Of a stretch of DNA of 64,000 bases, positions 21,879 through 56,231 are shown one piece after another; position 1 is the first letter of the stretch, and each line of letters begins with the position of its first letter. The position numbers and the translations under genes were made by a program. The DNA lies in assembly GCF_002920895.1 (NCBI RefSeq), contig NZ_PQVG01000005.1:1-64000 (forward strand), written 5' to 3'. The notes under the pieces are model-generated. The model was given only the letters and a program-made list of their open reading frames with translations. It made no database searches and was not told the origin of the DNA. Origin of the DNA: Flavobacterium alvei. GTDB lineage: Bacteria > Bacteroidota > Bacteroidia > Flavobacteriales > Flavobacteriaceae.

Positions 21879-22715
21879 TTAAATATCTAATTTGTAAAAT
21901 GATTTTGCGTTGTTGGTCCAAATCTGTTGTTGATCTTGATTTGAAAGTTGCGAAATATAATCTTCTAGTGTATTTACAATTTTCGAATAATCGGCAGCCA
22001 AATTGCAAACTGGCCAATCCGATCCAAACATTAAATTATGGGTCGAAAAATTCTCAAAAATAACATCTAAATAAGGTTTCAAATCAGCGGTTTGCCATTT
22101 ATTCCAATTGGCTTCGGTTACCATTCCTGAAATTTTACACATCACATTTTCTGCTTTTGCAATTTCAATTATATCCTTTTTCCAAGATTTTATGTTCCCC
22201 GATTTTATATCTGGTTTGGCAATATGATCAATTACAAAAGCTTGGTCAGGAAACGAATGAACCAAATCTATAGCAGCTGGCAACTGTCGATGAAAAATAA
22301 GAATGTCATAAGTAAAATTATACGCTTTCAATTCACGAATGCCATTGCGAAAATCATGTCGAAACATAAAATCATCCGCTTCGCCTTGCACCACATGTCT
22401 AAACCCTTTGATTATTTTATTTTCCGAAAAATGATTCAATCTTTCACTCACGTTTTTATCTCGTAAATCAATCCAGCCAACGACTCCTTTTATGAAATCA
22501 TTTTTGGAAGCCAAATCAACTAAAAAATCAGTCTGTTCTTCCGATTGATCGGCTTGAACAGCTACACAGCCTTGAAATTTATTTTCGGTCAGCAAAGGCT
22601 GTAAATCTTCTGGCAAAAAATCTTTTTGAATTTTTAGCATAGAATCATCAATCCAACTATCTCTTACGGGGTCGAATTTCCAAAAATGTTGGTGAGAATC
22701 AATTCGGTTTTTCAT
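21879..22715 (-). CDS. Amidohydrolase, L-fuconolactonase-like
   Basis: A 278-residue metal-dependent hydrolase of the amidohydrolase_2 family, close in pattern to L-fuconolactonases and related sugar lactonases (L-rhamnono-1,4-lactonase type). DSHQHFWKF near the N-terminus carries the HxH metal motif, KGFRHVVQGE the substrate loop, VIDHIAKPD a central His, and LMFGSDWPVC the catalytic Asp. It would open the lactone made by the adjacent dehydrogenase. It is the last gene of a five-gene minus-strand unit with 5-90-base gaps. Fucono-lactone is favoured by context, but rhamnono- or galactono-lactone remains possible. Confidence 0.85.
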   Translation of the reverse strand: MKNRIDSHQHFWKFDPVRDSWIDDSMLKIQKDFLPEDLQPLLTENKFQGCVAVQADQSEEQTDFLVDLASKNDFIKGVVGWIDLRDKNVSERLNHFSENKIIKGFRHVVQGEADDFMFRHDFRNGIRELKAYNFTYDILIFHRQLPAAIDLVHSFPDQAFVIDHIAKPDIKSGNIKSWKKDIIEIAKAENVMCKISGMVTEANWNKWQTADLKPYLDVIFENFSTHNLMFGSDWPVCNLAADYSKIVNTLEDYISQLSNQDQQQIWTNNAKSFYKLDI

Positions 22716-22720: not shown

Positions 22721-23521
22721 TTAAAGACTTACATCATTAATTAAAGCACGATCCAAATGAATATAACCTCCATCAACGCAAACAAATTGTCCTGTGGTAT
22801 GCGAAGAACGATCCGAAACTATAAAAAGTGCTGTATCGGCAATTTCTTCTGCTTTGGTCATTCTAGCTTCAAACGGAATACTTTTATTTATTTTTTGCAA
22901 AACTGCTTCTCCATCGGGTAGCGTTTTCAACCATTCGTCATAAGCTGGAGTAAAACTTTCGGCAATAATTATTGCATTAGAACGAATTCCAAACTGAATT
23001 AAATCGACTGCCCATTCTCTGGTCAAACCAAGAACCCCTCCTTTTGCAGCAGCATAACCCGATGTGCCTCCTTGTCCTGTTAAAGCCACTTTAGAACCAA
23101 TATTCAGAATATTCCCTTTGGATGCTTTTAGATAAGGAAGCGCAAATTTGGTCAATAAAAAATAGCTCACCACATTTAGCTTCAAAGAATTCATAAACTC
23201 TTCATAACTAGAATCCAATCCAGCACCATCATTGACACCGACGTTATTGATTACTGCGTCAATTCTGCCGTATTTTTCAACAATTTTATTGACCGCATTT
23301 TCCATTTGTTCCGGATTTGTAACATCGGTTTGAACAAAAATGGCATCAATTCCTCTTTTTTTAAGTTCTTCAGCATAACCAAAACCTCGTCTATTTCTAT
23401 CAACAAGAGCTGGAATAGCGCCTTCATCGGCCAAACGTTTGACAATGGTTTCGCCAATACTTCCTTCTTTGCCTGCTGAACCCGAAACAACAACTATTTT
23501 TCCTTTTAAATGTAAATCCAT
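22721..23521 (-). CDS. SDR family dehydrogenase, probable L-fucose dehydrogenase
   Basis: A 266-residue short-chain dehydrogenase. The cofactor motif is GSAGKEGSIG (about residues 13-22), the acidic residue after strand 2 is in LVDRN, INNVGVN is the NNxG motif, and the catalytic pair is in SGYAAAKGG. In the non-phosphorylative L-fucose pathway an SDR oxidises L-fucose to L-fuconolactone, and the lactonase gene follows after five bases, which supports that role. Other aldose substrates cannot be excluded. Confidence 0.78.
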   Translation of the reverse strand: MDLHLKGKIVVVSGSAGKEGSIGETIVKRLADEGAIPALVDRNRRGFGYAEELKKRGIDAIFVQTDVTNPEQMENAVNKIVEKYGRIDAVINNVGVNDGAGLDSSYEEFMNSLKLNVVSYFLLTKFALPYLKASKGNILNIGSKVALTGQGGTSGYAAAKGGVLGLTREWAVDLIQFGIRSNAIIIAESFTPAYDEWLKTLPDGEAVLQKINKSIPFEARMTKAEEIADTALFIVSDRSSHTTGQFVCVDGGYIHLDRALINDVSL

Positions 23522-23538
23522 AATGATTTTTTTAAGAA

Positions 23539-24552
23539 TTAATTCAATTCTATAATTGCTTTGATAGTATTATTTTTTGGATCAATCCATTGATCAAAAA
23601 CATCAATCATATCGGTAAAATTAGCCCTATGAGTGATGTATTTTTTAGGGTCAATTTTTCCTGATTTCAGACATTTCATCACAAATTCAAAATCCTCGAT
23701 GGTTGCATTTCGGCTACTCATCAAGGTGGTTTCTCTTTTATGAAATTCAGGATGACTGAAACTCAATTCTCCTTTTTGAAGCCCTACCAAAACAAATCGC
23801 CCTCCGTGAGCAACATAATTAAAAGCACCATTCATCACATTTCTATTTCCTGTGGCGTCTATAACTACATTGACCATATCTCCATTTGTAATTTGCTTAA
23901 GCCTTTCGGTTACATCTTCATTCATTGGATTTATGACAGCGTCAGCTTGAAGTTCTTTTTTGCAAAAATCCAATCTGAAATCATTAATATCCAAAACAAT
24001 AACTTTGGCACCCGCAATTTTAGCAAACTGGATCAATCCAATTCCAATTGGCCCTGCGCCCATTACCAAAACAGTATCTTTGGCTTCAACAGCAGCTCTT
24101 CTTACACCGTGAGCGGCAATGGCTAATGGTTCAACTAAGGCTAATTCATCATAATCCAAACCTTGACTGTGTAGTAAATATTGCTCTGGAACAGTTATAT
24201 ATTCGGCCATTCCACCATCAATATGAACGCCAAACACTTTAATATTGGCACAACAATTGGTCAATCCGTTTCTACAAGCCACACATTCTCCACAATTAAA
24301 ATAAGGTATCAAAGTCACTTTATCACCTGGTTCAAAACCTTTGGCATTTCCTTTAATGTATTCGGCAGCCAATTCGTGACCTAAAACTCTAGGATATTCA
24401 AAGTAAGGTTGTGTTCCGCCATAAGCATGAATGTCAGTTCCACAAACGCCAATTCTTTTTATTTTCAATAAAACTTCACCTTCTTTGGGTTCTGGCCTGG
24501 GTTTTTCTTTCAACTTAAACTCATGAGGTTTTTCACATACAATATATTTCAT
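23539..24552 (-). CDS. Zinc-dependent alcohol dehydrogenase (sugar-acid oxidoreductase type)
   Basis: A 337-residue medium-chain dehydrogenase. GVCGTDIHAYGG and GHELAAE supply the catalytic zinc site, the four-Cys structural-zinc lobe is NCGECVACRNGLTNCC, and GAGPIGIGLIQ begins the NAD-binding fold with Asp in VLDIND (NAD+ preference). The pattern is similar to L-galactonate/L-gulonate 5-dehydrogenases and related enzymes found beside sugar-acid genes. Here it sits between the two short-chain dehydrogenase genes. It may handle L-galactonate or a fuconate side branch. Exact substrate unknown. Confidence 0.82.
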   Translation of the reverse strand: MKYIVCEKPHEFKLKEKPRPEPKEGEVLLKIKRIGVCGTDIHAYGGTQPYFEYPRVLGHELAAEYIKGNAKGFEPGDKVTLIPYFNCGECVACRNGLTNCCANIKVFGVHIDGGMAEYITVPEQYLLHSQGLDYDELALVEPLAIAAHGVRRAAVEAKDTVLVMGAGPIGIGLIQFAKIAGAKVIVLDINDFRLDFCKKELQADAVINPMNEDVTERLKQITNGDMVNVVIDATGNRNVMNGAFNYVAHGGRFVLVGLQKGELSFSHPEFHKRETTLMSSRNATIEDFEFVMKCLKSGKIDPKKYITHRANFTDMIDVFDQWIDPKNNTIKAIIELN

Positions 24553-24572: not shown

Positions 24573-25427
24573 TTACTTTTTATACCCTACTGCCAATTGT
24601 TTACTAGATCCTAAACCTTCCATTCCCAATTCGATTACATCACCTTCTTTAAGATAAACAGGTTCTGGTTTGATGCCTAATCCAACTCCAGGAGGTGTCC
24701 CTGTACTGATAATATCACCTGGCAATAAAGTCATATATTGGCTAAGATAATGCACCAAAAATGGAATTTTAAACACTAAATTAGAAGTATTGCTGTCTTG
24801 GTATTTTTTCCCATTTACAGTCAACCACATCGACAAATTATCGACATCTGCAATTTCGTCTTTAGTAGCTAAAAAGGGGCCTAGTGGTGCAAAAGTATCG
24901 CAACCTTTCCCTTTTGCCCATTGTCCTCCACGTTCTAATTGAAAAGCTCTTTCGCTATAATCATTATGCAAACAATAGCCAGCTACATAATCCATAGCAT
25001 CGTCTTCTTCAACATAACTTGCTTTTTTTCCAACAACAAAAACCAATTCGATTTCCCAATCTGTTTTTTCACTGTTTTTAGGAATGATTAAATCATCATT
25101 TGGCCCACACAAAGCAGTCGTTGATTTGAAGAAGATGATAGGTTCTGCTGGGATTGGCGCTCCCGTTTCAACACAATGATCGACATAATTCAGACCAATA
25201 CAGATTATTTTTGAAGGCCTTGCAACTGGCGAACCTAAACGTACATCAGCACTAACCTCAGGCAAAACTGGATTGCTTTCTAATGCTTTTTGCAATTTTT
25301 CTAAACCATTTTCTTCAAAAAAAGCTTCATCAAAATCCTTTACAATTGATGACACATCATATCTTTTTTCGTCGATTAAAACTCCAGGTTTTTCTTTTCC
25401 AATGGCTCCAAAACGTATTAATTTCAT
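24573..25427 (-). CDS. Fumarylacetoacetate hydrolase family, probable 2,4-diketo-3-deoxy-L-fuconate hydrolase
   Basis: A 284-residue FAH-family metal enzyme. ICIGLNYVDHCVETG opens the catalytic domain, FFKSTTALCGPND and DWEIELVFVVGKKA carry the acidic metal ligands, and YSERAFQLERGGQWAKGKGCD and STGTPPGVGLG are conserved family segments. In the non-phosphorylative fucose (and rhamnose) pathways this enzyme splits the 2,4-diketo-3-deoxy acid to pyruvate and L-lactate. The neighbouring dehydrogenase that would make the diketo acid supports this. A ureidoglycolate-lyase-type label would be less consistent with context. Confidence 0.82.
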   Translation of the reverse strand: MKLIRFGAIGKEKPGVLIDEKRYDVSSIVKDFDEAFFEENGLEKLQKALESNPVLPEVSADVRLGSPVARPSKIICIGLNYVDHCVETGAPIPAEPIIFFKSTTALCGPNDDLIIPKNSEKTDWEIELVFVVGKKASYVEEDDAMDYVAGYCLHNDYSERAFQLERGGQWAKGKGCDTFAPLGPFLATKDEIADVDNLSMWLTVNGKKYQDSNTSNLVFKIPFLVHYLSQYMTLLPGDIISTGTPPGVGLGIKPEPVYLKEGDVIELGMEGLGSSKQLAVGYKK

Positions 25428-25516: not shown

Positions 25517-26281
25517 TTAGTTATTCAATTTTATAAAACCTCCGTCAATCGGATAATCACAACCTGTAATAAAACCTGCTTCATCGCTACACAAAAACAA
25601 AGCTAAGGAGGCTATTTCATCGGGTTTACCCATTCGACCAATGGGCTGTGATTGCGATAATTTTTCGAACATTTCTGCTTCTTTTCCTGGATAATTTTTC
25701 GATATAAATCCATCAACAAAAGGCGTATGAACTCGGGCTGGAGAAATCGAATTGCAACGAATATTCTCTCCCATATAATCTTTAGCAACCGACAAAGTCA
25801 TTGCCATTACAGCACCTTTGGCTGTTGAATAAGCAAATCGGTCTGGAAGTCCAACCCAAGCAGCGATTGAACACATATTCACAATGACACCACCATTCGA
25901 CAATCTTAATTGAGGTATTGCAGCAAACAAACAATTATAAACTCCTTTGACGTTCACTTCCATCACACGGTCAAAATCCGTTTCGGATGTGGTATCCACT
26001 TTTCCAACATTGGCAATTCCTGCATTATTTACCAGAATGTCTATATTCCCTATTTTTTCAAATGTAGCCAATACTTCTTTTTGGTTGGTTACATTACAAG
26101 CATATGAAAATACTTTTCCTCCTGCTTTTTGGATGTCAGCTAAAGCCTCTTGAGCACTCTCGATACTCAAATCAAGAATATGAACTTCAGCTCCTTGCTT
26201 TGCAAACAAAGTAGCAATTGCTCTTCCAATTCCGCTACCTCCACCAGTTATTACTGCTTTTTTATTGTTTAATGAAAACAT
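25517..26281 (-). CDS. SDR family dehydrogenase, probable 2-keto-3-deoxy-L-fuconate dehydrogenase
   Basis: A 254-residue classical short-chain dehydrogenase. GGGSGIGRAIA is the dinucleotide motif (about residues 13-23), HILDLS holds the NAD-selecting Asp, VNNAGIAN is the NNAG motif, and FAYSTAKGA is the catalytic YxxxK. It is first in the five-gene operon. Pairing with an FAH-family hydrolase is typical of 2-keto-3-deoxy-L-fuconate (or -rhamnonate) 4-dehydrogenases, which make the diketo acid. Its leader holds a palindromic operator and a perfect -7 element, so it is probably the controlled entry to the operon. Confidence 0.8.
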   Translation of the reverse strand: MFSLNNKKAVITGGGSGIGRAIATLFAKQGAEVHILDLSIESAQEALADIQKAGGKVFSYACNVTNQKEVLATFEKIGNIDILVNNAGIANVGKVDTTSETDFDRVMEVNVKGVYNCLFAAIPQLRLSNGGVIVNMCSIAAWVGLPDRFAYSTAKGAVMAMTLSVAKDYMGENIRCNSISPARVHTPFVDGFISKNYPGKEAEMFEKLSQSQPIGRMGKPDEIASLALFLCSDEAGFITGCDYPIDGGFIKLNN

Positions 26282-26352: not shown

Positions 26353-26364
26353 GTAATCGATTAC
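26353..26364. promoter_or_regulatory. LacI-type operator, perfect palindrome
   Basis: GTAATCGATTAC is a 12-base perfect palindrome with the central CG flanked by AAT/ATT that LacI/GalR-family operators typically show. It lies about 15-27 bases downstream of the transcript start predicted for the SDR operon, a position suited to repression by blocking. No LacI-family gene is in the window. Confidence 0.65.
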
Positions 26365-26428: not shown

Positions 26429-26440
26429 GTAATCGATTGC
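26429..26440. promoter_or_regulatory. LacI-type operator overlapping a promoter
   Basis: GTAATCGATTGC differs from the palindrome at 26353 by one base. Its 3' part contains the TTG (26437-26439) that serves as the -33 element of the next promoter, so a bound protein would block RNA polymerase. The same 12-mer occurs twice more in front of the giant T9SS genes. Confidence 0.65.
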
Positions 26441-26466
26441 GTAATCCAATCTTATTTTTAAATTTG
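26437..26466 (+). promoter_or_regulatory. Promoter of the SBP-like/CoA-transferase cluster
   Basis: TTG (26437-26439), a spacer of exactly 19 bases, then TAAATTTG (26459-26466): a full match to the Bacteroidota -33/-7 architecture. The transcript start is expected near 26472, about 50 bases before the first gene's preferred ATG. Confidence 0.65.
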
Positions 26467-26523: not shown

Positions 26524-27672
26524 ATGAAAAAACTCAAAGGGATTACGTGGAATCACACCAGAGGTTTATTGCCAATGGTAGCCACTTCCCAACGTTTTAC
26601 GGAGCTGAATCCCGGCATCGAGATCAGCTGGGAGAAAAGAAGTTTACAGGAATTTGCCGATGCTTCCATCGAAGATTTAGCCAAACGATTCGACCTCTTG
26701 GTTATCGACCATCCTTGGACGGGTTTTGGCGCACACACCAATGCCATCCTTCCTTTATCCGATTATCTTTCTCCCGAATACATCAAAGACCAAGAAATAA
26801 ATACCGTTGGGCGTTCTTATGGAAGTTATGTTTTTAGCGACAAACTATGGGCATTGCCAATAGACGCAGCTACTCCCGTGGCATCGGCTCGATTGGATAT
26901 TTTGAAAGAACAAGGATTAAAAGTCCCTGAAACCTATGATGATTTATTGGCTTTGGCCAATAAAGGATTGGTCGCTTTCGCGGGAATCCCGGTAGATGTA
27001 TTGATGAGTTTTTATATGTATTGCTGTAGTTTGGGCGAAGCACCGTTTCAATCTCAAGAAAAAGTAATTTCGGTCGAAACAGGAACAAAAGCCTTGCAAC
27101 AATTTAGGGAATTGGCGCAATTAATCGACCCAGCCAATTTCAACAGAAACCCTATTCAGGTTTACGAAGCGATGGTCAACACCGATGAAATCGCCTACTG
27201 CCCTTTTGCTTATGGTTATTCCAATTATTCCCGAACAGGCTACAGCAAAAACTTGCTCCATTTTTACGACTTGGTAAAATTGAACGCCCAACCAATGATT
27301 AGCTCTTTGGGCGGAACCGGATTGGCGGTTTCTTCTTTTAGCCAACACATTCCCGAAGCTATCAAATATGCCGAATTCACGGGTTCGCCCCAAGTGCAAC
27401 AAAATATTTTCGCCGACAACGGCGGACAACCGGGACATTTACAAGCTTGGAAAAGCGACCGAATCAATGGTGTAACACACGATTATTTCAAAAATACCTT
27501 GCCGGCTTTGGAAAGAGCTTTCTTGCGTCCGAGATATTCCGGGCATATGTACTTCCAAGACCACGCCGGTGATGTCGTTCGCGATTATTTGATGAAAGGC
27601 GGTAACGAAGAATCGGTTTTGTCAGCAATGAATGAGCTTTACGTGAAGTCTTTAAACTTGCAAGCGAAATGA
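26524..27672 (+). CDS. Solute-binding-protein fold (family 1) without signal peptide
   Basis: A 382-residue protein with the look of a carbohydrate ABC-transporter solute-binding protein (SBP_bac_1): ELNPGIEISWEKRSLQEF, then LPLSDYL, LWALPIDAATPVASARLDIL and IPEAIKYAEFTGSPQVQQNIF in the usual order. It lacks any signal peptide or lipobox, starting directly MKKLKGITWNHTRGLLP, so it should stay in the cytoplasm. I prefer ATG 26524, which follows an A-rich stretch. ATG 26494 would add ten charged residues, still no signal. No family-1 ABC permease is nearby. Its stop overlaps the first CoA-transferase start (ATGA). A non-transport role, as enzyme partner or sensor, is an inference. Confidence 0.8.
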   Translation: MKKLKGITWNHTRGLLPMVATSQRFTELNPGIEISWEKRSLQEFADASIEDLAKRFDLLVIDHPWTGFGAHTNAILPLSDYLSPEYIKDQEINTVGRSYGSYVFSDKLWALPIDAATPVASARLDILKEQGLKVPETYDDLLALANKGLVAFAGIPVDVLMSFYMYCCSLGEAPFQSQEKVISVETGTKALQQFRELAQLIDPANFNRNPIQVYEAMVNTDEIAYCPFAYGYSNYSRTGYSKNLLHFYDLVKLNAQPMISSLGGTGLAVSSFSQHIPEAIKYAEFTGSPQVQQNIFADNGGQPGHLQAWKSDRINGVTHDYFKNTLPALERAFLRPRYSGHMYFQDHAGDVVRDYLMKGGNEESVLSAMNELYVKSLNLQAK

Positions 27673-28814
27673 AACCATTAGAAGGACTTATCGTTTTAGA
27701 ATTTTGTCAATTTTTGGCAGGACCTTCTGCGGGATTAAAATTGGCCGATTTAGGTGCCAGAGTCATCAAAATTGAACGCCCCATAAAAGGCGAAGCTTGC
27801 CGACAACTCAGCATCAAAGACCTTTTTGTGGACGAAAGCAGTTTGCTGTTTCACACCATCAACAGAAACAAAGAATCTTTTGCCGCCGATTTAAAAAATC
27901 CTGAAGATTTAATTTTGGTAAAAAAACTGATTGCCAAAGCAGATATTATGACCCATAATTTCCGTCCAGGCGTGATGGACAAAATTGGGTTGACTTTTGA
28001 AGATGCCTTGACCATCAACCCAAAAATCATTTACGGAACCATTACGGGTTATGGCGAAAAAGGCCCGTGGGCAAAAAAACCGGGACAAGATTTACTGTTG
28101 CAATCACTATCAGGATTAAGTTGGTTGAGCGGACGAAAAAGCCAAGAACCCGTTCCTTTCGGCTTGGCCGTGGCCGACTTGATGTGTGGCAATCATTTCG
28201 TACAAGGAATTTTGACCGCATTGTTGAAAAGAGCCAAAACTGGAAAAGGTGTTCAAGTAGAAGTAAGTTTACTTGAATCGGTTTTGGATATTCAATTCGA
28301 ATCGATTACCTCCTTTTTGAATGACGGCGGACAATTGCCCGAAAGAGGCGATGTCAAAGGAAGTGCGCACGCTTTTTTGAGTGCTCCGTATGGCGTTTAC
28401 CAAACCCAGGACGGCTACATTTCCTTGGCAATGGGCGACTTGCTTTTCATTGGAAACCTATTGGGAATTAATTTAGAAAAATACGCAGACAAGCACCAAT
28501 GGTTCGCTTCGAGGGACGAAATAAGAGAATTATTGACTGCCAAATTAATCACACACAAATCTGATTATTGGTTAAGCATATTACAAAGCAAAGGCGTTTG
28601 GTGTGGAAAAGTATTAAATTACAATGATTTAGACAGTCAAGCTTTCGTGAAGGATTTGCAATTGAAACAAACCGTGAAAAATTCGGCGGGAGAAACATTG
28701 GTGACCACCAGAAGCCCGATTCAATTGGACGGAGCAATTTTAGCCAGTTCGAAAGCCGCTCCAAAAGTGGGCGAAGATAATTTACAGATACACGAACAAT
28801 TTTTAAATAACTAA
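27669..28814 (+). CDS. CaiB/BaiF family (class III) CoA-transferase, copy 1
   Basis: A 381-residue CoA-transferase of the formyl-CoA:oxalate/succinyl-CoA type. The start [19 protein letters not shown] and [14 protein letters not shown] form the CoA-binding region, [15 protein letters not shown] and [13 protein letters not shown] are conserved, and [12 protein letters not shown] (about residue 140) carries the catalytic Asp that forms the acyl intermediate. The enzyme moves CoA onto a carboxylic acid. Which acid is unknown. It overlaps the upstream SBP-like gene by four bases and is followed two bases later by a clear paralogue, so a two-subunit enzyme is possible. Confidence 0.9.
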
Positions 28815-28815
28815 A

Positions 28816-29955
28816 ATGAAACCATTGGAAGATTATTTAATAGTAGATTTTAGCCAGTTCCTTTCCGGGCCATCGGCCAGTTTGCGATTGGCGGATTTGG
28901 GTGCTCGTGTCATCAAAATTGAGAAACCCGGCACTGGAGACATTTGCCGAACTTTATATACTTCGGATTTGATAATGAATGGCGAATCGTCCATTTTTCA
29001 TACCATCAACCGAAACAAGGAATCCTTTGCCATCGATTTCAAACAGCCCGATGGACTCGAAAAATTAAAAAACCTATTGGCAAAAGCAGACGTGGTGATG
29101 CACAACTTCAGACCCGGAGTGATGGAACGCGTGGGTTTGAGTTATGATGAAGTCAAAAAAATCAATCCAAATGTGGTTTATGCCGAAATTTCGGGTTACG
29201 GAAACCATCCTGATTTAAAAGATTTGCCGGGACAAGATTTATTGTTGCAATCGCTGACTGCCTTGACTTGGTTGAGCGGCAATCAAGATGACGGTCCAGT
29301 TCCTATGGGTTTGTCAATTGTGGATATGTTGGCTGGAGCGCATTTGGCACAAGGAATTTTGGCGGCTTTGTACAGAAAAGCAACGCACAACATCGGAGCA
29401 TTGGTGCAAGTAAGTATGTTGGAATCAGCTTTTGATTTTCAGTTCGAAACCATTACGACTTATTTTAACGACGGTGGCGAATTGCCCGTTCGAACCAAAA
29501 GCAACAATGCCCACGCCTATTTGGGTGCGCCTTATGGAATTTACAAAACCCAAAATGGATTTTTGGCTTTGGCAATGGGGTCGATTCCCATTTTGGCTGA
29601 ACTTTTAAAATGCGATGCACTGTTGCAATTTCCCGAGAATAAATTTGGATTAAGAGACGAAATCAAGAATATATTGGCCACGCATTTGCTTACACAGAAT
29701 ACCGAATTTTGGTTGAACATTTTGGAACCCGCCGACATTTGGTGTGCCAAAGTATTGAACTACCAAGAGCTTTTTGCCGAAGAGGGTTTCAAAGTTTTGG
29801 AGTTCACTCAGGAAGTTCAAATGCTGGACGGCTATTCCTATCAAACGACCCGATGTCCGATTAAAATTGACGGCGAATATTTTACTTCAACTAAAGGCTC
29901 TCCAAAATTAGGGCAAGACAACGAACGAATTATTAATGAATTTATTGATTGCTAA
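28816..29955 (+). CDS. CaiB/BaiF family (class III) CoA-transferase, copy 2
   Basis: A 379-residue paralogue of the preceding gene. Motifs are in the same places: [42 protein letters not shown] and [13 protein letters not shown] with the catalytic Asp kept. The two copies align along their whole length but are clearly diverged, so this is not a recent duplication. Retained catalytic residues in both argue for two activities or a heterodimer. It ends in a TAATG overlap with the second SBP-like gene. Base composition is richer in G+C than the housekeeping genes. Confidence 0.9.
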
Positions 29956-31178
29956 TGGACAAAATAAGAATCGCCATCCGAAAATTCGACCCTTTTGAAA
30001 GCACCTTGCAAAAGCTGTGGGACTTGTTTTGCCTAGAAAAGAATATCGACGTGAAAGCCGAAATGATTCCTTTGGAATTGAACGACTTGTACGAAGAAAC
30101 CATTGCTAAAAATGGATTGAAAAATGGCGATTGGGATATTGCCCACCTCAACACGGACTGGATTTTTGACGCTGCGAATGAACAAGCGGTTCTCGATTTA
30201 AACCCATTAATTGCCGAAAATGCACCACAAAATTATCCCGAAGGTTGGCATCAATCGTTGTTGCATTTACAACAAATCAATGGCGGAACCTATGGTTTGC
30301 CTTTTCACGACGGGCCGGAATGTTTGATTTACAGAAAAGATTTATTTGAAAACCCAATCGAAAAACAAAATTTCAAGAAGCAGTTTGGCTATGAATTGCA
30401 TCCCCCAAAAACCTGGACGGAATTCACCCAAATAGCCGAGTTTTTCAATCGTCCAGCAGAAAATTTGTACGGCTGTGTTTTTGCCAATTATCCTGATGGA
30501 CACAATATGGTTTTCATCTTTTGTTTGTTGTTTTGGACCAAGGGAGGCTCTTTGTTGAATTCCCGAAATCAAATCGACATCAACCGCCCGGAAGCTGTTG
30601 CGGCATTGGATTATTACAGAAAAATTTCCAACAACAAGAAGGCCGTTCATCCCCAATCGATAGATTTTGGTTCGGTTGAGGCAGGAATGGCTTTCGCCAA
30701 AGGAGAAGTGGCGATGTCCATCAATTGGTTTGGTTTTGCCTCGATGTGTGAAGTCATCGAAGAATCGAAAGTGAAAGGCAAAGTCGACATTGCGGAATTG
30801 CCGCACGACGAAAAGCACGAAACAGCTTCTTTGAACGTGTATTGGCTTTATACCATTGGAACTGGAAGCAAGCATCAAAAACTGGCTTACGACTTTATTC
30901 AATTTGCCACCACGCCCGAAAGCGACAAATTATTGACAACCGAAGGCGGAATTGGCTGTCGAAAATCCACTTGGAACGATGCGGAAATCAACAAAACGAT
31001 TCCGTATTACCACAAGTTGGAACTCTTGCACGAAACGGCCTTGACCTTGCCGCAAACACCGATTTGGCCAAAAGTCGCCGAATTGATAGACAAAATGATC
31101 TTGAAAGCATTGGAAACCGACATTCCATCCGAAAAACTAGTTTCAGCAACACAAATCACCATTCAAAACATTGTTTAA
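29955..31178 (+). CDS. Second solute-binding-protein fold without signal peptide
   Basis: A 407-residue family-1 solute-binding-protein homologue. LPFHDGPECLIYRKDLFENP, PPKTWTEFTQIAEFF, INRPEAVAALDYYRKI, MAFAKGEVAMSINWFGFA and AYDFIQFATTPESDKLLTTEGG are characteristic of the sugar-binding type. It begins [19 protein letters not shown] with no hydrophobic leader, so like its companion it is predicted cytoplasmic. ATG 29955 overlaps the preceding stop by one base, so translation is probably coupled. It is only distantly similar to the first SBP-like protein. An in-frame TTG two codons earlier makes no difference to localisation. Confidence 0.8.
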   Translation: MDKIRIAIRKFDPFESTLQKLWDLFCLEKNIDVKAEMIPLELNDLYEETIAKNGLKNGDWDIAHLNTDWIFDAANEQAVLDLNPLIAENAPQNYPEGWHQSLLHLQQINGGTYGLPFHDGPECLIYRKDLFENPIEKQNFKKQFGYELHPPKTWTEFTQIAEFFNRPAENLYGCVFANYPDGHNMVFIFCLLFWTKGGSLLNSRNQIDINRPEAVAALDYYRKISNNKKAVHPQSIDFGSVEAGMAFAKGEVAMSINWFGFASMCEVIEESKVKGKVDIAELPHDEKHETASLNVYWLYTIGTGSKHQKLAYDFIQFATTPESDKLLTTEGGIGCRKSTWNDAEINKTIPYYHKLELLHETALTLPQTPIWPKVAELIDKMILKALETDIPSEKLVSATQITIQNIV

Positions 31179-31179
31179 A

Positions 31180-32247
31180 ATGAACATTCCCTATAAACCT
31201 TTATTGCCCGAAACCCAGCAACCCATCATCATCATTGGTGCCAGCGGAATCGTGAAAGATGCGCATTTGCCTGCTTATGAAATGGCTGGTTTTACCGTTT
31301 TTGGCATTACCAACAGAACGCTTTCGAAAGCACAGGATATGGCAAAACAATTTGGTATTCCAAATGTTTTTGAAAACGTGGCCGAGGCCGTAAAAAATGC
31401 ACCATCGAATGCCGTTTACGACATTACGGTTTTACCCGATCAATACATCGAAATCTTGGAGCAATTGCCTGACGGAGCCGCGGTTCTCATCCAAAAACCG
31501 ATGGGCAACGATTTGGCGCAAGCCCGAGAAATCGTGGCGGTTTGCGAAAGAAAAAAACTAGTCGCAGCCATCAATTTCCAGTTGCGTTTTACCTCTTTTG
31601 TCAGTGCTGCACGACACATCATCAATCAAGGAATTATTGGCGATTTGTATGATTTGGAAGTTAAAGTTACCGTGAACACACCTTGGGAATTGTTCCCGCT
31701 CATCAAGGAACATCCGAGATTGGAAATCCTTTTTCACAGCGTGCATTACATTGATTGCATTCGTTCGTTTTTGGGAAATCCAAAAGGCGTTTATGCCAAA
31801 ACTAGCCATCATCCTTTGAAAAAATTATCCTCTTGTCGTTCTTCGATTATTTTGAATTATGACGAAGCGATGCGTGTGGTCATCAACACGAATCACGATC
31901 ATCATTTTGGACCAAAACACGAAGAAAGCTACATCAAATGGGAAGGAACCAAGGGAGCGATTAAAGCCAAAATGGGCTTGTTGATGAATTATCCCGATGG
32001 AATGCCAGACGAATTTGAAATTGCATTGCCGAATGATGACGGTGCATTCGAATGGAAGAAAATCGAATTGGAAGGTTCTTGGTTCCCGGAAGCCTTTATT
32101 GGTACAATGTCCAATTTGATGCGCTTCAAGGAAGGTTCCGACGACAAATTATTGGCCAGCGTGCAAGACGTTCTCGACACAATGAAAGTGGTTGAAGCTT
32201 GTTACATCAGCAATAAAAATGGAGGCGTTTCAATAGATGAATTATAA
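31180..32247 (+). CDS. Gfo/Idh/MocA family oxidoreductase
   Basis: A 355-residue NAD(P)-dependent oxidoreductase of the glucose-fructose oxidoreductase/inositol dehydrogenase family. IIIIGASGIVKDAHLPAYE is the dinucleotide fold, DITVLPDQYIEIL leads to the EKP-equivalent QKPMGNDLAQAREI (Gln replaces the usual Glu, Lys kept), and HSVHYIDCIRSFLG supplies the conserved C-terminal-domain His. Such enzymes oxidise sugars, sugar acids or cyclitols. ATG 31180 is two bases after the previous stop. It is likely the redox step of this cluster. Substrate unknown. Confidence 0.85.
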   Translation: MNIPYKPLLPETQQPIIIIGASGIVKDAHLPAYEMAGFTVFGITNRTLSKAQDMAKQFGIPNVFENVAEAVKNAPSNAVYDITVLPDQYIEILEQLPDGAAVLIQKPMGNDLAQAREIVAVCERKKLVAAINFQLRFTSFVSAARHIINQGIIGDLYDLEVKVTVNTPWELFPLIKEHPRLEILFHSVHYIDCIRSFLGNPKGVYAKTSHHPLKKLSSCRSSIILNYDEAMRVVINTNHDHHFGPKHEESYIKWEGTKGAIKAKMGLLMNYPDGMPDEFEIALPNDDGAFEWKKIELEGSWFPEAFIGTMSNLMRFKEGSDDKLLASVQDVLDTMKVVEACYISNKNGGVSIDEL

Positions 32248-32258
32248 AATAATTTAAA

Positions 32259-32332
32259 CCATATAAGGCATATAAGTTCATATAAGCCACAACAAAAGCA
32301 AAAACTTAAATGACCTTATATGCCTTATATGG
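32259..32332. repeat. Perfect 18-base inverted repeat with TATAAG repeats
   Basis: CCATATAAGGCATATAAG (32259-32276) is the exact reverse complement of CTTATATGCCTTATATGG (32315-32332). A third CATATAAG lies just inside the left arm. It fills the gap between the Gfo/Idh/MocA gene and the MaoC gene inside an otherwise tight cluster. It may be a REP-like intergenic repeat or an RNA hairpin, and it has no terminator U-run. Confidence 0.75.
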
Positions 32333-32353
32333 TGAACAAAACAAAATAAAAAT

Positions 32354-32794
32354 ATGTATTTCAAATCCACCTTTTTCGAAGATTACCAACTCAATGAAAA
32401 GCGAGTAACTTTAGGAAGAACCATAACCGAAACTGATTTTGTGGTGCACGCCGGACACACGGGCGATTTTTTTCCGCATCATATGGATGAAGAATGGTGC
32501 AAGACACAGCCTTTCGGCCAACGAATTGCCCACGGAACGATGGTTTTCAGCATTGGCATTGGCTTGACCGCATCGGAAATCAATCCGGAAGCTTTTTCGA
32601 AAGGCTACGACCGAATGCGCTTTGTGAAACCGGTTCATATTGGTGACACCATCCATTCCGAAATTACAATTTCTGAAAAAGGAGAAGCCAAAAGACCCGA
32701 AATGGGCACCGTGACAGAACATGTCGAAATCATCAACCAAAGAGGTGAAGTGGTTATGGTGTGCGACCATCTATTATTAGTAAAAAAGAAATAA
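32354..32794 (+). CDS. MaoC family dehydratase
   Basis: A 146-residue hot-dog-fold protein of the MaoC/R-hydratase family. [25 protein letters not shown] carries the catalytic Asp and His, followed by [15 protein letters not shown] (the HG-loop) and [16 protein letters not shown]. These enzymes add or remove water at a 2-enoyl-CoA (or similar thioester). Next to two CoA-transferases, it suggests that the acid is activated to its CoA thioester and then dehydrated or hydrated. It is separated from the upstream genes by the inverted repeat and followed by the transporter after 22 bases. Confidence 0.88.
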
Positions 32795-32816: not shown

Positions 32817-34127
32817 ATGCAAGTAACGAACCAAATGGGCGATCAACACGAAGTGCCAACAGAAGAAGGGGTAGGAAACGGAAAAAAATATCTTTTGCCT
32901 TTTATTTTAATAACCAGTTTGTTTTTCCTCTGGGGAATGGCTCACGGTCTCGATGGTATTTTAATTCCGCATTTAAAAAAAGCCTGCCAACTCAACAACA
33001 GACAATCGACATTGATTGATACGTCTATCTTTTTTGCCTATTTTATAATGGCAATTCCGGCTGGAATGATTATTAAAAAAATAGGCTATAAAAACAGTAT
33101 TATTACAGGTTTATTAGTTTTTGCTTCAGGAGCATTTCTTTTTGTCCCTGCTGCAAATAGCACAAACTTCGAGCTTTTCTTATTTGCTTTATTTGTAATT
33201 GGTTGCGGATTAACTATTCTTGAAACCAGTGCCAATCCGTATGCAGCTATTTTAGGCCCGGCAAAATCTTCCTCTAATAGGTTGAATTTGGCCGCATCGT
33301 TTAACGGTTTGGCGGTAACTATTGCACCTTATTTGGGAGGTGTATTTATACTATCTGGAATTAACTACACCCCAGAACAAATGGCTGCTATGCCCGACGC
33401 TACCAAGGCAGCTTATTTTCTTGAAGAAGCATCGGCAGTAAAATTACCTTATATCATTTTAGGAAGTATTTTGGTTTTGGTAGCCATTGTATTTTATTTT
33501 ATGCACTTGCCTTCAATGGTTTCAAAAGAAACCGAAAATGAAGTTAAACCAGGTTTTTTCTCTGTTTTAAAATTTTCGCATTTGAGTTGGGCGGTTGTCG
33601 CACAGTTTTTTTATGTAGGCGCCCAAGTTTGTGTGACTAGTTTTTTCATTCGAATTGCTCAAAAAGAAGCTGGTTTAGATGAAAAAACGGCTGCATTTTA
33701 TTTAACGGCTTATGGCTTCTTATTTATGGCCGGTCGTTTTAGTGGTACTCTCTTTTTAAAATTCATTAAAGATTATATTTTGCTTTCTGTTTATTGTGTT
33801 ATTAGCGTATTATTATGTTTAGTAGCCATTTACGGAAGTGGCATTTACATTATTTATGCTCTTGGTGGTATTGGATTCTTTATGTCTATAATGTTTCCAA
33901 CAATATTCTCTTTGGGATTAGTAGGCTTAAAATCGAATACCGAAACGGGTTCTTCTTGGTTGGTGATGTCCATCGTAGGCGGAGCCATTTTACCTTATGG
34001 AATGGGAACTTTAATCGATATGAAACACGATGATATTCAAGCGGGATATATTATTCCATTGGTTTGTTTCTTGGTCATTCTATTTTTTGGATTAGTGGGA
34101 CATAAAGTAAAAACGGTGGAAAGTTAA
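32817..34127 (+). CDS. fucP: FucP-type sugar:H+ symporter (MFS)
   Basis: A 436-residue, 12-helix MFS transporter of the fucose:H+ symporter family. FFLWGMAHGLDGILIPHLKKA is the helix-1 signature, followed by FFAYFIMAIPAGMIIKKIGYK and LETSANPYAAILGP, all typical of FucP and of related Bacteroidota permeases for glucose, galactose or N-acetylglucosamine. L-fucose is favoured by the fucose-type enzymes nearby, but family members differ in substrate. It is the last gene of the plus-strand cluster, closed by a strong terminator. Its base composition is nearer the genome average than that of the CoA-transferase genes. Confidence 0.85.
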   Translation: MQVTNQMGDQHEVPTEEGVGNGKKYLLPFILITSLFFLWGMAHGLDGILIPHLKKACQLNNRQSTLIDTSIFFAYFIMAIPAGMIIKKIGYKNSIITGLLVFASGAFLFVPAANSTNFELFLFALFVIGCGLTILETSANPYAAILGPAKSSSNRLNLAASFNGLAVTIAPYLGGVFILSGINYTPEQMAAMPDATKAAYFLEEASAVKLPYIILGSILVLVAIVFYFMHLPSMVSKETENEVKPGFFSVLKFSHLSWAVVAQFFYVGAQVCVTSFFIRIAQKEAGLDEKTAAFYLTAYGFLFMAGRFSGTLFLKFIKDYILLSVYCVISVLLCLVAIYGSGIYIIYALGGIGFFMSIMFPTIFSLGLVGLKSNTETGSSWLVMSIVGGAILPYGMGTLIDMKHDDIQAGYIIPLVCFLVILFFGLVGHKVKTVES

Positions 34128-40977: not shown

Positions 40978-40989
40978 GTAATCGATTGC
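40978..40989. promoter_or_regulatory. LacI-type operator of the 1,246-residue type B gene
   Basis: GTAATCGATTGC on the plus strand (GCAATCGATTAC in the direction of transcription), the same 12-mer as at 26429. It lies one base downstream of the -7 element at 40991-40998, so it covers the predicted transcript start, a position where a bound repressor would block initiation. Confidence 0.6.
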
Positions 40990-41463: not shown

Positions 41464-41475
41464 GCAATCGATTAC
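41464..41475. promoter_or_regulatory. LacI-type operator of the 2,227-residue type B gene
   Basis: GCAATCGATTAC, the exact reverse complement of the sites at 26429 and 40978, 52 bases before the start codon. Relative to its gene it has the same orientation as the site of the divergent gene. A good -7 element could not be identified beside it: TACCTTTTG at 41473-41481 has one base too many. Confidence 0.6.
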
Positions 41476-41527: not shown

Positions 41528-44500
41528 ATGAAAAAAATAGTTGTATTCCTTTTTATAATTATAACTTCAATAAATAGTTATGCACAATTTAGTAAAGTAC
41601 ATTACATCCCACCTATAACAGCAACTTACTCCACTTCGATTGGTGGAAAAAGTACTTGTGATCCTGACGTAGATCAATACATCTATATATCAACCCCAAG
41701 TACTACTCCAGTAACTGTAACCTTGACTCCTCTAGGAGGAACCCCTGTTATAAACACAGTAAGCAACAGTACACCTTGGATTTACACAATAAAAACACTT
41801 CCAAGTGCCATAAACGGATCTCAAACCTCTGGTGGTGTTACAACAGCAAAATTTGGATTTGACAATCAATTATTTGTTCCAAACACATTAACAGGGACAG
41901 TTCAAAAAAACAGAGGGTTTTTAATAGAATCGACCGATTTGGTCTATGCCAATCTTAGAGTATCGTCTGATGTAAGCGGTACTGGTAGTGCCGCTAAATC
42001 TTCTCAAGCTGGTGGTTTGGTAGCCAAAGGAACTAGTGCTTATGGAAAAGAGTTTCGAATTGGAGGGATGGAAAACAAATCAGCACTGACATCAGGCAAC
42101 GAATTTTGTTTATTAAATTTTGCGTCATTCGTTGCAACCGAAGATAATACAACTGTTACAATCAACCTTAGCAATCCTGCTGCAATTGGCGCAATAATGG
42201 CTAATGGAGTAGCTTATAGCGGCCCTATTACTAAAACGTTAAATAAAAATGAGACTTATGTTATAGCGATGCAAAATTCATCCTCAACAACATTTGAAAG
42301 TAATTATATGCTTGGTGGTCTTATTACTTCAGACCGTAATATCGTTGTAAACTGTGGTTCTATTGGGGGAAACAGTCAAATTAAAAACGAAATTCCAGCA
42401 GTGCCTAACTCCATTAGTTTTAATACAGGAGGGAAAGATTATGGATTTGACCAAATTGTACCTTCTGATAAAACGGGAAAAGAATACATATTTATTGGAG
42501 GAGCTGGAATGTTAGCATCGGCCAAAGCCTATGATTTAGAACGTGTTATTATCATTGCTAACGTAAACGGCACACAAGTTTTTAAAGATGGCACTATCCT
42601 TGTCGCTACATTAGCTGCGGGGCAATATTATGTATTTAATGGAAATCATTACACCAATGGCAACTTGTATGTTAAAACATCCGAAAATGTTTTTGCCTAC
42701 CAATGCATAGCAGGAAGTAATGATGCCGGAAATCAAAATATGTTTTTTGTACCACCATTAACTTGTGGTACACCAAGTTCTGTTAACAACATCCCTCTAA
42801 TTGAGCAAGTGGGAATTGTGACCTATACTAATGCTGTTGTAAATATCACTACCGAAGCAACAGCAGCAGAAGCTACTCCTATAATAACAATCGGCAATAC
42901 ACCAATTTCATTGACTAGTCTTAATAGTTCAAGATTTTCAGTAACAGGAAAAACTGGTTTTTATACCTACACCTATCCTAAACCTGGAGTCACTCCAGCC
43001 CCTCCTGCTCTAGTAGGAAATATTTCTGTATCAGCTCCGCATCAAGTATATGTTTCTTATTATGGATCTAACTCTAACGCTACTTATGGCAGCTATTTCT
43101 CTGGATTTGATACCAAACCAATTGTTTCGTCACAAAGTGCAGTGACAGGTACTGCTTGCATAGGCAATACAACTTTAAACATTACTGGAGCATTAGCTAC
43201 TGATACATTTAACTGGTATTATAGTACTACTCCAATTATTGACCCTGCAACTTCGACTCTAATTACGGGTGAAACAACAAGTTCTTATACCCCAAAATCT
43301 ATCACAAGCGGAGGATTTGGTCCCGGTTATTATGCAGTAAGCAAACTCACAGGATGTGCTGCTATTGTATCTGATCCAATTGCTGTAAGCCAATGTCCTG
43401 TTGATGATGATAATGATGGTGTTTTTAACAATATCGATATTGATTCCGACAATGATGGTATAACCAACATATCTGAGTCTTATGGAAACAAAACAATCGA
43501 TGTTTCTGTACCTTCAGGAACTTTAGCCGTAGGCACTTATAGCAATACATACACCAATACCACAACAACTTCTGGTATAGGAAACAGTTTCACAGGAAAC
43601 TCAAACGGCAGTTTTACCACCAACCTTTCAGCAGGAAAGACCAATTCTGTTACACAAAACTTAATTTTTGCAGCCCCAATAAGTCTTGGAATTGTTTACA
43701 ATCCTACAGCAGGCTCTACAGTTAGTTCTTTATCTAATGGCACTTTTATAATCAAATCAGATATCGCAAATACTATAACGGTTTCCAACCCATCCAATCA
43801 GCTTTTAATTGACACCAATTATGATGGAATTTATGAAAATGGAGTAACTCAATTTTCTTCTTTAGAGATTCGATTCATCTTAAATCCTGCAGTATTATTG
43901 GCTACACCTGCCCCTGCAATTGATTTTATATTTCAAACCTATTTGGCTAATTCAATTAGTTTTACACACCAAAATCTTTCCGATAGCCAACCTAATTCCT
44001 CCAGTTTTAGTTTCTATGCTGTTAATGTTCCTAAAGATTCTGACAGTGATGGAATTAACGACCAAGTAGATAAAGATAGTGATGGTGATGGAATTTTAGA
44101 TATTGTAGAAGGTCAAATAGGGAACAAAACCATAGCAACCCCTTTTGCTGATATCAACAAAAATGGTCTAGCTGATAATTTCGAACCAATTATTGCTCCG
44201 GTTGATACTGATTTAGACGGAGTGCCTGACTTTATCGATTTAGATAGTGATAATGATGGAATTTTAGATACTGTAGAAAACGGAGCTACTAATTTAGATC
44301 CTGATGCCGACGGAATAAAAAATTACCGTGATTTAGACAGTGATGGAGATACTTGTAATGATGTTGTCGAAGCTGGTTTCACAGACCCAAATGCTGATGG
44401 CAAACTAGGAATTTCACCTATTACAGTGGATATAAATGGAAAAGTGACTAGCGGAACTGATGGATATACTGCTCCTGCGGGCTCACCTACTGCCTATTAC

Positions 44501-47500
44501 TTAATCGCTGCTACACCAGTTATAACGGTACAACCAACCGCCAATCCAAATTGTACGGCAGGCACTGCCGTAATTTCAATGGTAGAAAATGGTGGAAACA
44601 ACATCAAATGGCAAGTTTCGCCAATTATTGCTCCTATCGTCTGGACTGATATTACTAACAATGCTATTTATTCTGGAGCTAACACTAACACTTTAACTAT
44701 TTCTAGTGCAGCAAACGGTTTCCAATACCGTGCTGTTTTAAACAAAAACGAAAGTGCTTGCACTCTTGTTATTTCTGATATTGTACCTGTAATTTTTAGC
44801 AATTCGCCTGTTGTAGTCGATGTTACTATGGAAGAATGTGATCCCGATTTGGATGGAAAAACTCTTTTCGATTTAACTGCAAAAAACACTCAAATTTCAG
44901 TTAATTCTGCCAATGAAACTTTCACTTATTACACTTCTTTAGCTGGAGCTAATGCCAACAATCCTTTAGAATTAATCAGTAATCCAACAACTTATACCAA
45001 TACGACAGCACACACTATGGAAATTGGAGTAAGAGTAGCCAATCCAGCTGGATGTTCTAGTGTATCAAAAATAACACTAAATGTTGGCATTCAAATCCCT
45101 GCAAGTTATGTATTTCCATCGCCACCACAACCAGTTTGTGATGATGCAGTGCAAGATGGATTTACCACTTTTGACATAAGTGCTACAAAAACAACAATAG
45201 AAGCCCTTTTCCCAAGTACAGGATATACTGTTGCTTATTATCCAACGCAAACAGATGCCACGAATCAAACAAACGCTATAACGAATCTTTCAAGTTATAG
45301 AAATACCATTGCTAACACTCAACCTATTTGGATTCGTGTAAATAACAACAATGCTAATTTTAATACTTGCTATACTTTAGCAACCTACTTCTCATTAAAC
45401 GTAGAAGCATTACCTATTGCAAATTTTGTTACAATTCCAAATCAATGCGATGATAATCATGATGGTAAACTATCTTTTAATACTTCAACTTTAGAATCTA
45501 TACTTCTAGGCGGACAAACCAATAAAACAGTTACTTATTTTGATGCAGCAAACAACCCTTTGAAAGATGCTAATGGAAATTTGATAACAAGTCCTTTTCC
45601 AAATAATTTTGTAACCACTTCACAAACAATAAAAGCAGTAGTAACAAATAATACTGCTCAAAAATGTTCTGCTTCAACTACCATTTCATTTGTTGTAGAA
45701 ACATTGCCTATTGCTAATCCTGTAATAATACCAAACCAATGTGATGATAATAATGATGGAAAATTATCCTTCGATACTTCTACTTTAGAATCTACTGTAT
45801 TAGGTGGACAAACAGGTGTAACGGTTACTTATTTTGATGCTGCAAACAATCCTCTGAAAGATGCTAACGGAAACTTAATAACAAGTCCTTTTCCAAATAA
45901 TTTTGTAACCACTTCACAAACAATAAAAGCAGTAGTAACAAATAGCAGTGGGTTAAACTGCTCTGAAAGTACCAATATTCAATTTACAGTAGAGCCATTA
46001 CCCATTGCAAATTCTGTTACAATTCCAACCCAATGTGATGACAATCATGATGGAAAATTATCTTTCAATACCGCCTCTTTAGAATCTACTGTATTAGGTG
46101 GACAAACCAATGTGTCAGTTACTTATTTTGATGCAACAAACAACCCTCTGAAAGATGCCAACGGAAATTTGATAACAAGTCCTTTTCCAAATAATTTTGT
46201 AACTATTTCGCAAACAATAAAAGCAGTAGTAACTAATATCTCTGGATTAAAATGTTCAGCAAGCGCCAACATTCAATTTGTTGTAGAACCATTACCGACT
46301 GCAAATCCAGTACTCATTCCTAAACAATGTGATGATAATCGAGATGGAAAATTATCTTTCGATACCTCCACTTTAGAATCTACTTTATTGGGAGGACAAA
46401 CGGGTGCAACTGTCACTTATTTGGATGCTGCAAACAATCCTTTGAAAGATGCTAACGGAAATTTAATAACAAGTCCTTTTCCAAATAATTTTCTAACTAT
46501 TTCACAAACAATAAAAGCAGTAGTAACAAATAGCACTGGATTAAACTGCTCTGAAAGTACCAATATTCAATTTACGGTAGAGCCATTGCCTATTGCAAAT
46601 CCTGTACTCATTCCTATACAATGTGATGATAATCGAGATGGAAAATTATCTTTCAATACCTCCTCTTTAGAATCTACTGTATTAGGTGGACAAACGGGTG
46701 TAACCGTTACTTATTTGGATGCTGCAAACAATCCATTGAAAGACGCTAATGGAAATTTAATAACAAGTCCTTTTCCAAATAATTTTGTAACCACTTCCCA
46801 AACAATAAAAGCGGTAGTAACCAATAACACTCCACAAAAATGTGCGGATCAAACCTCTATTACATTTACAATTGAACCATTGCCTGTTGCTAATCCAGTA
46901 ATTATTTCAAGACAATGTGATGACGATCAAGACGGAATATTATCCTTTAATACCACCAATTTAGAATCGACTTTATTAGGTGGACAAACAGGTGTAACTG
47001 TCACATACTTTGATTCTGCAAACAATCCTTTGAAAGATGCTAACGGAAATTTAATTACAAGCCCTTTTCCAGCAAATTTCATTACATCCTCACAAATCAT
47101 AACGGCTGTTGTAAAAAACAATTCAACACAAGGTTGCACCGATAAAACAACTATTACATTTACAGTTGATATTAAACCAATTGCTAATCCTGTTGCCCCT
47201 TTCATTGAATGTGATAACGAATCAGACCCTTTATTACAAGATGGAAAATATACTTTTGATACAAGCACTATTCAGTCCACAATTTTAGGAACACAAACAG
47301 GAATGACTATCAAATATTTTGACGGAAATGGAAATCCATTAAACCCATTACCGAACCCATTTACAACAGCAACACAAACCATTAAAGCCGTTGTCGAAAA
47401 CCCATTAAACACAAATTGTCCGGCAACACAATTCATATCATTTACAGTAAATCCATCTCCAAAAATTAATACAAACATCGATGGAAATGACGATAAGCTA

Positions 47501-49636: not shown

Positions 49637-49683
49637 AAAAAGGGTTGGTTAATTGGGCTGGTTAGTAATAGTAGAAAATCAAT

Positions 49684-56227: not shown

Positions 56228-56231
56228 AGTT

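Follow-up and report, generated by a model that had tools for sequence, protein, structure and literature searches.

Two proteins with the fold of ATP-binding cassette (ABC) solute-binding proteins (SBPs) are encoded on either side of two coenzyme A (CoA)-transferase genes in the DNA analysed here, a 64,000-nucleotide stretch of Flavobacterium alvei referred to as the window. The first, SBPA (26524–27672, 382 aa), was recognised as a CUT1-type solute-binding fold by the Pfam families SBP_bac_8 and SBP_bac_1 (best E = 5.8e-10). It is followed by two family III CoA-transferases, CoAT1 (27669–28814, 381 aa; CoA_transf_3, E = 7.5e-91) and CoAT2 (28816–29955, 379 aa; CoA_transf_3, E = 6.4e-89), and by SBPB (29955–31178, 407 aa), a second CUT1-type fold found by the same two SBP families (SBP_bac_1, E = 1.4e-29). 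A Gfo/Idh/MocA dehydrogenase (31180–32247) and a MaoC/PaaZ-C hydratase (32354–32794; MaoC_dehydratas), both identified by Pfam, come next; all six genes are on the forward strand. The open reading frames and Pfam matches confirmed this order and these positions as given in an initial annotation of the DNA. The overlapping stops and starts described there were present between SBPA and CoAT1 (four bases, ATGA) and between CoAT2 and SBPB (one base, TAATG); the CoAT2 start lies one base past the CoAT1 stop. The interval between the Gfo and MaoC genes contains an imperfect palindromic repeat (32258–32333); related copies occur elsewhere in the genome, on contigs 1, 12, 16 and 17.

Both SBPs have the family membership (SBP_bac_1/SBP_bac_8) and the predicted two-lobed fold of the family-1 SBPs of ABC importers. 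AlphaFold (AF2) models of SBPA (pLDDT 93.4) and SBPB (pLDDT 94.3) matched PDB structures over their full length, with TMq values for the top ten of 0.78–0.85 (MalE3, SmoF and TMBP among them) and 0.79–0.86, respectively. The proteins thus share fold and Pfam families with CUT1 importer SBPs such as SmoF, Thermotoga maritima MalE3 and the trehalose/maltose-binding protein, at 14–23% identity among the matches listed. They differ from these in lacking a detected export signal and a dedicated permease nearby in the window genome, and in having genes coupled to CoA-transferases. Alignments to TMBP-like SBPs, used to compare the canonical ligand residues, were loose. Neither protein matched any model in an NCBIfam search at E 0.001. 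SBPA and SBPB are only 18% identical to each other by profile, and a tree of 27 proteins placed them in distinct groups (support 100/100 and 96/97, respectively), with SBPB grouping on the transport-SBP side. The mirror arrangement proposed initially therefore holds for the positions of the two genes and not for their relationship, and a duplicated pair was ruled out. The tree is unrooted and has long branches, so the history of recruitment of the two SBPs is unsure. SBPA was found in Bacteroidota, Proteobacteria and Actinomycetota. Besides Bacteroidota, SBPB was found in a single alphaproteobacterium and in a haloarchaeon.

CoAT1 and CoAT2 are 48% identical and are the only two CoA_transf_3 genes of the window genome. 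The profile covered both over their full length, and an Asp, which we take to be the catalytic residue of family III CoA-transferases, was invariant in 12/12 aligned CoATs, including these two. BbsEF is a heteromeric family III enzyme and provides a precedent for two-subunit forms. CoAT1 and CoAT2 resemble the family III (CaiB/BaiF) enzymes, BbsEF included, in profile coverage, in the Asp and in consisting of a homologous pair of subunits capable of fusion. They are unlike the known members in their linkage to SBP folds and in their NCBIfam scores, the CoATs falling under every listed cut-off (best match 224.7 bits versus 750).

Relatives of SBPA were sought at E 1e-10 in evenly drawn genomes, and were found in 17 of 199 genomes drawn from the family and in 19 of 395 drawn from the phylum, giving 34 combined loci outside the window. 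Neighbourhoods were counted on stretches of about 20 kb each. A CoAT gene lay within 1.5 kb of SBPA at 30/34 of these Bacteroidota loci; at least two CoATs were present at 26/34, SBPB at 19/34, Gfo at 24/34, and MaoC or a crotonase at 27/34. A scan of genome contigs produced at least 568 confirmed SBPA relatives. Among the 80 loci kept from it, all Bacteroidota and close, a CoAT occurred within 1.5 kb at 80/80, SBPB somewhere on the stretch at 76/80, Gfo at 75/80 and a hydratase at 78/80. Plasmids were searched in the same way, and 145 of 72,556 records contained an SBPA relative. We examined 18 plasmid loci, chosen for annotation and variety and not at random (17 from these 145 records and one from a separate set of five records); for the 17 with SBPA, a CoAT was found within 1.5 kb at 15 and somewhere on the stretch at 16. 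Proteobacteria also have the CoAT–SBPA pair, in many cases close to ABC transporters with separate SBPs. Gene order was kept across the loci examined, a point on which the initial annotation had been open to refutation. The four-gene set as a whole was kept less strictly: SBPB was limited to the 19 of 34 loci noted above, and a CoAT was absent from the stretch at 4/34 loci and at 1/17 plasmid loci.

The association could also be measured at the level of whole genomes, since CoA_transf_3 is rare in the family of the window organism (24/199 genomes). A family III CoAT was present in 17/17 genomes with SBPA, the window genome included, and in 7/182 of the others (Fisher P = 2e-19). Five of these seven matched the profile only to position 321–353 of 366, one was a broken fragment, and one (G026) was full length. 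A chance neighbourhood was ruled out by the locus counts together with this co-occurrence.

Coupling of the genes was also close. With gaps estimated from profile starts, and with many of the loci being close relatives, the SBPA–CoAT gap had a median of −1, with overlap in 75/111 cases. Gaps of 20 bases or fewer separated CoAT from SBPB in 95/97 cases, CoAT from CoAT in 69/109 and SBPB from Gfo in 67/100, and Gfo from MaoC in only 14/96. Most proteobacterial loci have the reverse order, CoAT then SBPA, and there the gap was 20 bases or fewer in 11/12, several of which are Sinorhizobium. At five of nine Hymenobacter loci scanned (L136, L137, L138, L141 and L151), CoAT1 and CoAT2 form a single open frame. 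SBPB and Gfo form a single frame in one genome (L060), a single case that could reflect a frameshift or sequencing error. In Sinorhizobium meliloti 1021 pSymB (L163, 10845–11989), the CoAT gene beside SBPA reads in two frames, but in strain ml21 it is annotated as a single gene. These gaps bear on the suggestion that the genes share no more than a sugar regulon, with the CoATs converting some by-product (from lactate, pyruvate or acetate pools) and the SBPs carried along as unrelated passengers. The other steps of a non-phosphorylated rhamnose/fucose route (lactonase, FAH hydrolase) need no CoA as we understand their chemistry, as this suggestion would have it, but it is hard to reconcile with an order and close spacing that are conserved across phyla, and we regard it as improbable.

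Analysis of hydrophobicity and start codons found no signal peptide or lipobox on SBPA or SBPB. In the window, an in-frame TTG at 26437 upstream of SBPA would add a stretch that is hydrophobic and lipobox-like by eye, though it scored below our threshold of 2.0. This TTG lies inside an operator-like repeat, GTAATCGATTGC (26429–26440, a pattern match), and 5′ of a TAnnTTTG box of the SBPA operon (26459–26466, forward strand), presumably the Bacteroidota-type promoter motif, whose TTTG was invariant in eight aligned sequences, the window included. In a Flavobacterium metagenome-assembled genome (L082) with a 94% identical SBPA, an in-frame stop occurs no more than six codons from the ATG. A misread SBPA start, within the 60 upstream codons scored, was ruled out on the basis of the conserved promoter box and this upstream stop.

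The same pattern was observed more widely. Scoring of upstream starts, to a range of 60 codons, showed that 116/132 SBPA and 93/100 SBPB lack a start capable of extending them by at least 15 codons, and flagged a hydrophobic N-terminus in two SBPA (L101 and L102) and no SBPB. Annotated starts open straight into the conserved body in SBPA of Sinorhizobium, Labrenzia, Shinella, Ensifer, Nitratireductor, Croceibacterium, Variovorax, Streptomyces, Methylobacterium and Microvirga, and in SBPB of Croceibacterium and the haloarchaeon. The leader score is a hydrophobicity score and not a signal-peptide predictor: it exceeded 2.0 in 44/97 Gfo, a Rossmann protein, and in 2/108 SBPA and 1/108 CoAT2. It was at most 1.28 in 15/15 SBPA and SBPB of other phyla and plasmids, versus values above 2.0 in 8/12 transport SBPs at the same loci. 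The four transport SBPs under the threshold were those of Nitratireductor (0.77, at the annotated start), Halostagnicola (1.82) and Microvirga (1.88) and the RbsB-like protein of Ensifer (1.67), the last three being leader-like by eye despite their scores. The absence of export signals reported initially was thus borne out, and no homologue with a clear leader, which would have told against it, was found among the fetched SBPA and SBPB loci; nearly all look cytosolic.

As first reported, the window has no family-1 permease (BPD_transp_1), and the four matches in the genome are on contigs 2, 4 and 16. It does contain a ribose-type permease (BPD_transp_2, 57722–58693) accompanied by an RbsB-like protein of its own, at a distance of about 26 kb from the SBP–CoAT set. 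Linked permeases, proposed as a sign of ordinary transport, do occur at proteobacterial loci (Nitratireductor, Labrenzia, Shinella and Ensifer), but adjoin separate SBPs. SBPA and SBPB could in principle be ordinary transport SBPs with misread starts, or could be exported by some other route to serve a permease, as the CUT1 fold and profile, the upstream TTG and an overlap of SBPB with a permease gene in Croceibacterium would allow. Given the position of the TTG before the promoter box, the scarcity of longer starts, the location of the BPD_transp_1 permeases on other contigs and the proteobacterial permeases having SBPs of their own, we consider this very improbable. It would seem instead that the SBPs are, very probably, non-transport proteins of a CoA-linked sugar-acid pathway.

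Neighbouring genes were used to narrow the likely substrate. Directly downstream of the MaoC gene is a FucP-type 6-deoxyhexose/H+ symporter (32817–34127, forward strand; TIGR00885 fucP above cut-off). Upstream, a divergent operon on the reverse strand begins with a short-chain dehydrogenase/reductase (SDR; 25517–26281, NCBIfam), followed by an FAH-type hydrolase (24573–25427; best model 2,4-didehydro-3-deoxy-L-rhamnonate hydrolase, 366 bits, under the cut-off of 500), a zinc alcohol dehydrogenase and a second SDR (22721–24552, open reading frames named by eye), and ends with an L-fuconolactonase-like gene (21879–22715; NF052480, 266 bits, under the cut-off of 400). No aldonate dehydratase was seen at 20–34 kb, the stretch to which that search was limited and which holds the lactonase- and FAH-like genes. 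The non-phosphorylated L-rhamnose/L-fucose pathway consists of a dehydrogenase, a lactonase, a dehydratase, a further dehydrogenase and an FAH hydrolase, and most of these enzyme types occur in the divergent operon and at the Labrenzia and Nitratireductor loci. To our knowledge, that pathway needs no CoA, MaoC or SBP fold.

Similar enzymes were found at other loci. Among the 34 evenly drawn and 80 scanned Bacteroidota loci, FucP was the transporter at 12/34 and 73/80, and RhaT at 13/34 and 3/80. Alpha-L-rhamnosidases were present at 4/34, 33/80 and 1/18 (plasmid) loci for GH106-like and 2/34, 31/80 and 0/18 for GH78-like, using seed proteins taken from three of the counted loci; in Croceibacterium, a GH106 gene follows SBPA–CoAT in the same run. 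Genome-wide, GH106 occurred in 10/17 SBPA genomes versus 30/182 others (P = 2.6e-4). The Labrenzia, Nitratireductor and Shinella loci contain L-rhamnose mutarotase, MR-type dehydratase, L-fuconate dehydratase and SDR genes, with an FAH hydrolase also in the first two. A crotonase-type hydratase replaces MaoC at several loci (L049, L054, L062, L172 and L179), genes of the AMP-binding family (by family, CoA ligases) adjoin the module in Halostagnicola and Methylobacterium nodulans, and four-carbon-acid kinase and PdxA genes adjoin it in L057, L060 and M. nodulans. On a Halostagnicola larsenii plasmid (L178, 1–21206), SBPB, a CoAT and MaoC occur with two Gfo genes, an AMP-binding protein, GH88, an alpha-L-fucosidase and an L-rhamnose mutarotase; no SBPA was found on this stretch.

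The common theme of these loci, as judged from the predicted enzymes, is an oxidised deoxy-sugar or sugar acid together with CoA chemistry. The rhamnosidases, FucP and RhaT, lactonases, dehydratases and CoA hydratases among the neighbours point to acids of 6-deoxyhexoses or related pectin sugars, and 6-deoxyhexose pathways, perhaps linked to rhamnogalacturonan, fit the context better than a particular rare pectin sugar does. L-rhamnose was not accepted as the established substrate, as GH106 marks polysaccharide degraders generally and the window genome has an L-rhamnose isomerase (RhaA).

A mechanism consistent with these data can be proposed. A FucP or RhaT symporter, or in Proteobacteria a separate ABC importer, would take up the sugar, and the dehydrogenases and lactonase would convert an L-rhamnose/L-fucose-type 6-deoxyhexose, or a related pectin sugar, to its acid. 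SBPA, with SBPB where present, would bind the acid in the cytosol in the two-lobed cleft and hand it to the CoAT1/CoAT2 pair, which would load CoA onto the carboxylate, after which the MaoC or crotonase hydratase would act on the thioester. The ligand, the contact between SBP and CoAT and the chemistry are ones we infer, and the scheme is put forward tentatively, as the best of the explanations considered. We also hold it possible, short of an even chance, that two separate SBP lineages were recruited to the cytosol as obligatory parts of a CoA-dependent sugar-acid pathway, either as heteromeric CoA-transferase subunits or as enzymes.

MqnA and MqnD are SBP-fold enzymes and, with Thi5, are precedents for SBP folds in the cytosol; these proteins belong to another SBP cluster, and we know of no link between them and CoA-transferases. 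For sugar-acid CoA thioesters, a deoxyribonyl-CoA route has been proposed in Klebsiella michiganensis, which has in common with the present set the proposed thioester and a clustered CoA-transferase (PMC6365646). The K. michiganensis cluster, unlike the present set, has a CoA-synthetase, a hydroxyacyl-CoA dehydrogenase and a thiolase, and the term 'substrate-binding' is absent from the main text of that paper (PMC6365646). Among the matches listed from the open PubMed Central literature, a source that leaves most subscription journals and bioRxiv outside its scope, we found no account of cytosolic family-1 SBPs associated with CoA-transferases, and within that literature the initial statement that no pathway with this set had been described still stands. 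Each part comes from a known family, but no system known to us or found has the conserved pairing of CoA-transferases with predicted cytosolic sugar-SBP folds.

Several observations weigh against the proposed scheme. SBPA occurred without a CoAT on the stretch at four loci (L061, L065, L066 and L077), which tells against an obligate complex. All four genomes do encode a CoAT elsewhere: about 18 kb from SBPA on the L065 contig, as two copies roughly 60 kb off in L077, and next to further copies of SBPA in L061 and L066. In Microvirga, SBPA (32% identity to the Sinorhizobium medicae protein) overlaps mannonate dehydratase and lactonase genes, with no CoAT on the stretch; in Streptomyces, the CoAT was about 2.7 kb from SBPA. 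SBPB was missing from 15/34 evenly drawn loci, and the permease gene overlapped by SBPB in Croceibacterium is ribose-type, although that transporter has its own binding protein. No CoA-synthetase, hydroxyacyl-CoA dehydrogenase or thiolase was recognised among the window open reading frames at 20–34 kb, a few of which were judged by eye, and the lack of a thiolase in particular counts here; a thiolase query matched 0/34, 0/80 and 1/18 loci, the single match being the source of the query. Finally, RhaA was above cut-off in one of 199 family genomes, that of the window, so the module is not the only possible rhamnose route there, and a phosphorylated route may exist.

The SBPA copies without a local CoAT, and the sugar-acid neighbours in Microvirga, suggest that SBPA may serve the sugar-acid side of the pathway without a CoAT. 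An SBP-fold enzyme or sugar-acid binder thus stays a serious rival to a strict transferase subunit. The SBP folds would then be enzymes, for example an isomerase, epimerase or lyase acting on a free sugar acid, lactone or keto acid, with the CoAT catalysing a neighbouring step. The SBPA of L065 is beside an SDR and a UxuA-like dehydratase, that of L061 beside a gene resembling, by eye, the 7-bladed lactonase of L062, and that of Microvirga beside mannonate dehydratase, lactonase and SDR genes; many polar positions of SBPA were invariant in 16 diverse rows. On the other hand, SBPA and CoAT co-occur strictly by genome with short gaps in both orders, and no pathway gap that SBPA could fill was identified in common to all loci. 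Taken together, we judge an enzymatic role for the SBPs rather unlikely.

Regulatory features of the locus raise one further explanation. An operator-like palindrome, GTAATCGATTAC (26353–26364), lies between the divergent operons, and the pattern gave nine matches at five places in the window versus 1.49 matches expected. Across the genome, GTAATCGATTRC had 25 matches at 21 places versus 4 for the reversed control, several of them clustering on contig 12 at 357–407 kb. Based on the pattern, the GTAATCGATTRC sites look like a LacI-type regulon. The SBPs might accordingly be cytosolic sensors or buffers of an intermediate that act on IclR- or LacI-type control or shield the cell from a toxic lactone or acid. 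Operator-like sites flank the SBPA operon, and IclR-like genes occurred at 9/34, 23/80 and 7/18 loci (four seeds, some from these loci), yet with the seeds used there was no such gene at 93/132 loci, and two distinct SBP lineages per operon would be excessive for sensing. We consider such a role unlikely, and retain a non-transport function in a CoA-linked sugar-acid pathway as the preferred interpretation.

Further GTAATCGATTRC sites in the window (40978–40989 and 41464–41475, pattern matches) precede a gene at 41528–48211 for a 2227-residue protein, of which Pfam recognised nothing but a CHU_C type IX secretion domain at the C-terminus. On the reverse strand at 48350–63637 is a D-apiose/apionate-type locus with an OiaK-like kinase (427 bits) and an OiaX-like RuBisCO-like protein (490 bits), each scoring under the NCBIfam cut-off of 700, a ribose-type ABC transporter with an RbsB-like protein, and a transketolase half. 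Beside it, two adjacent genes (53395–56395) have Sde182 nucleoside-hydrolase-like domains. The Croceibacterium plasmid has the same apiose-type gene kinds about 10 kb either side of its CoAT–SBP module. Aceric acid and apiose were considered as substrates on account of these genes in the window and the Croceibacterium plasmid, and no direct link was found.

Family-1 SBPs are usually treated as transport parts that act outside the membrane, and automatic annotation labels the proteins described here 'extracellular solute-binding protein'. A broad group of these proteins is apparently cytosolic, and genome context links it to CoA-transferases. The gene set recurs across several phyla of bacteria, and some of it in an archaeon, which points to an undescribed form of intracellular plant-sugar breakdown, and the presence of the module in named strains makes direct testing possible. 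If this interpretation is correct, it would give a very common bacterial fold a new role, and would add both a route for sugar acids by way of CoA thioesters and a new pathway for the deoxysugars of plant and algal polysaccharides. It would also account for numerous misannotated genes of bacteria from soil, the sea and the rhizosphere.

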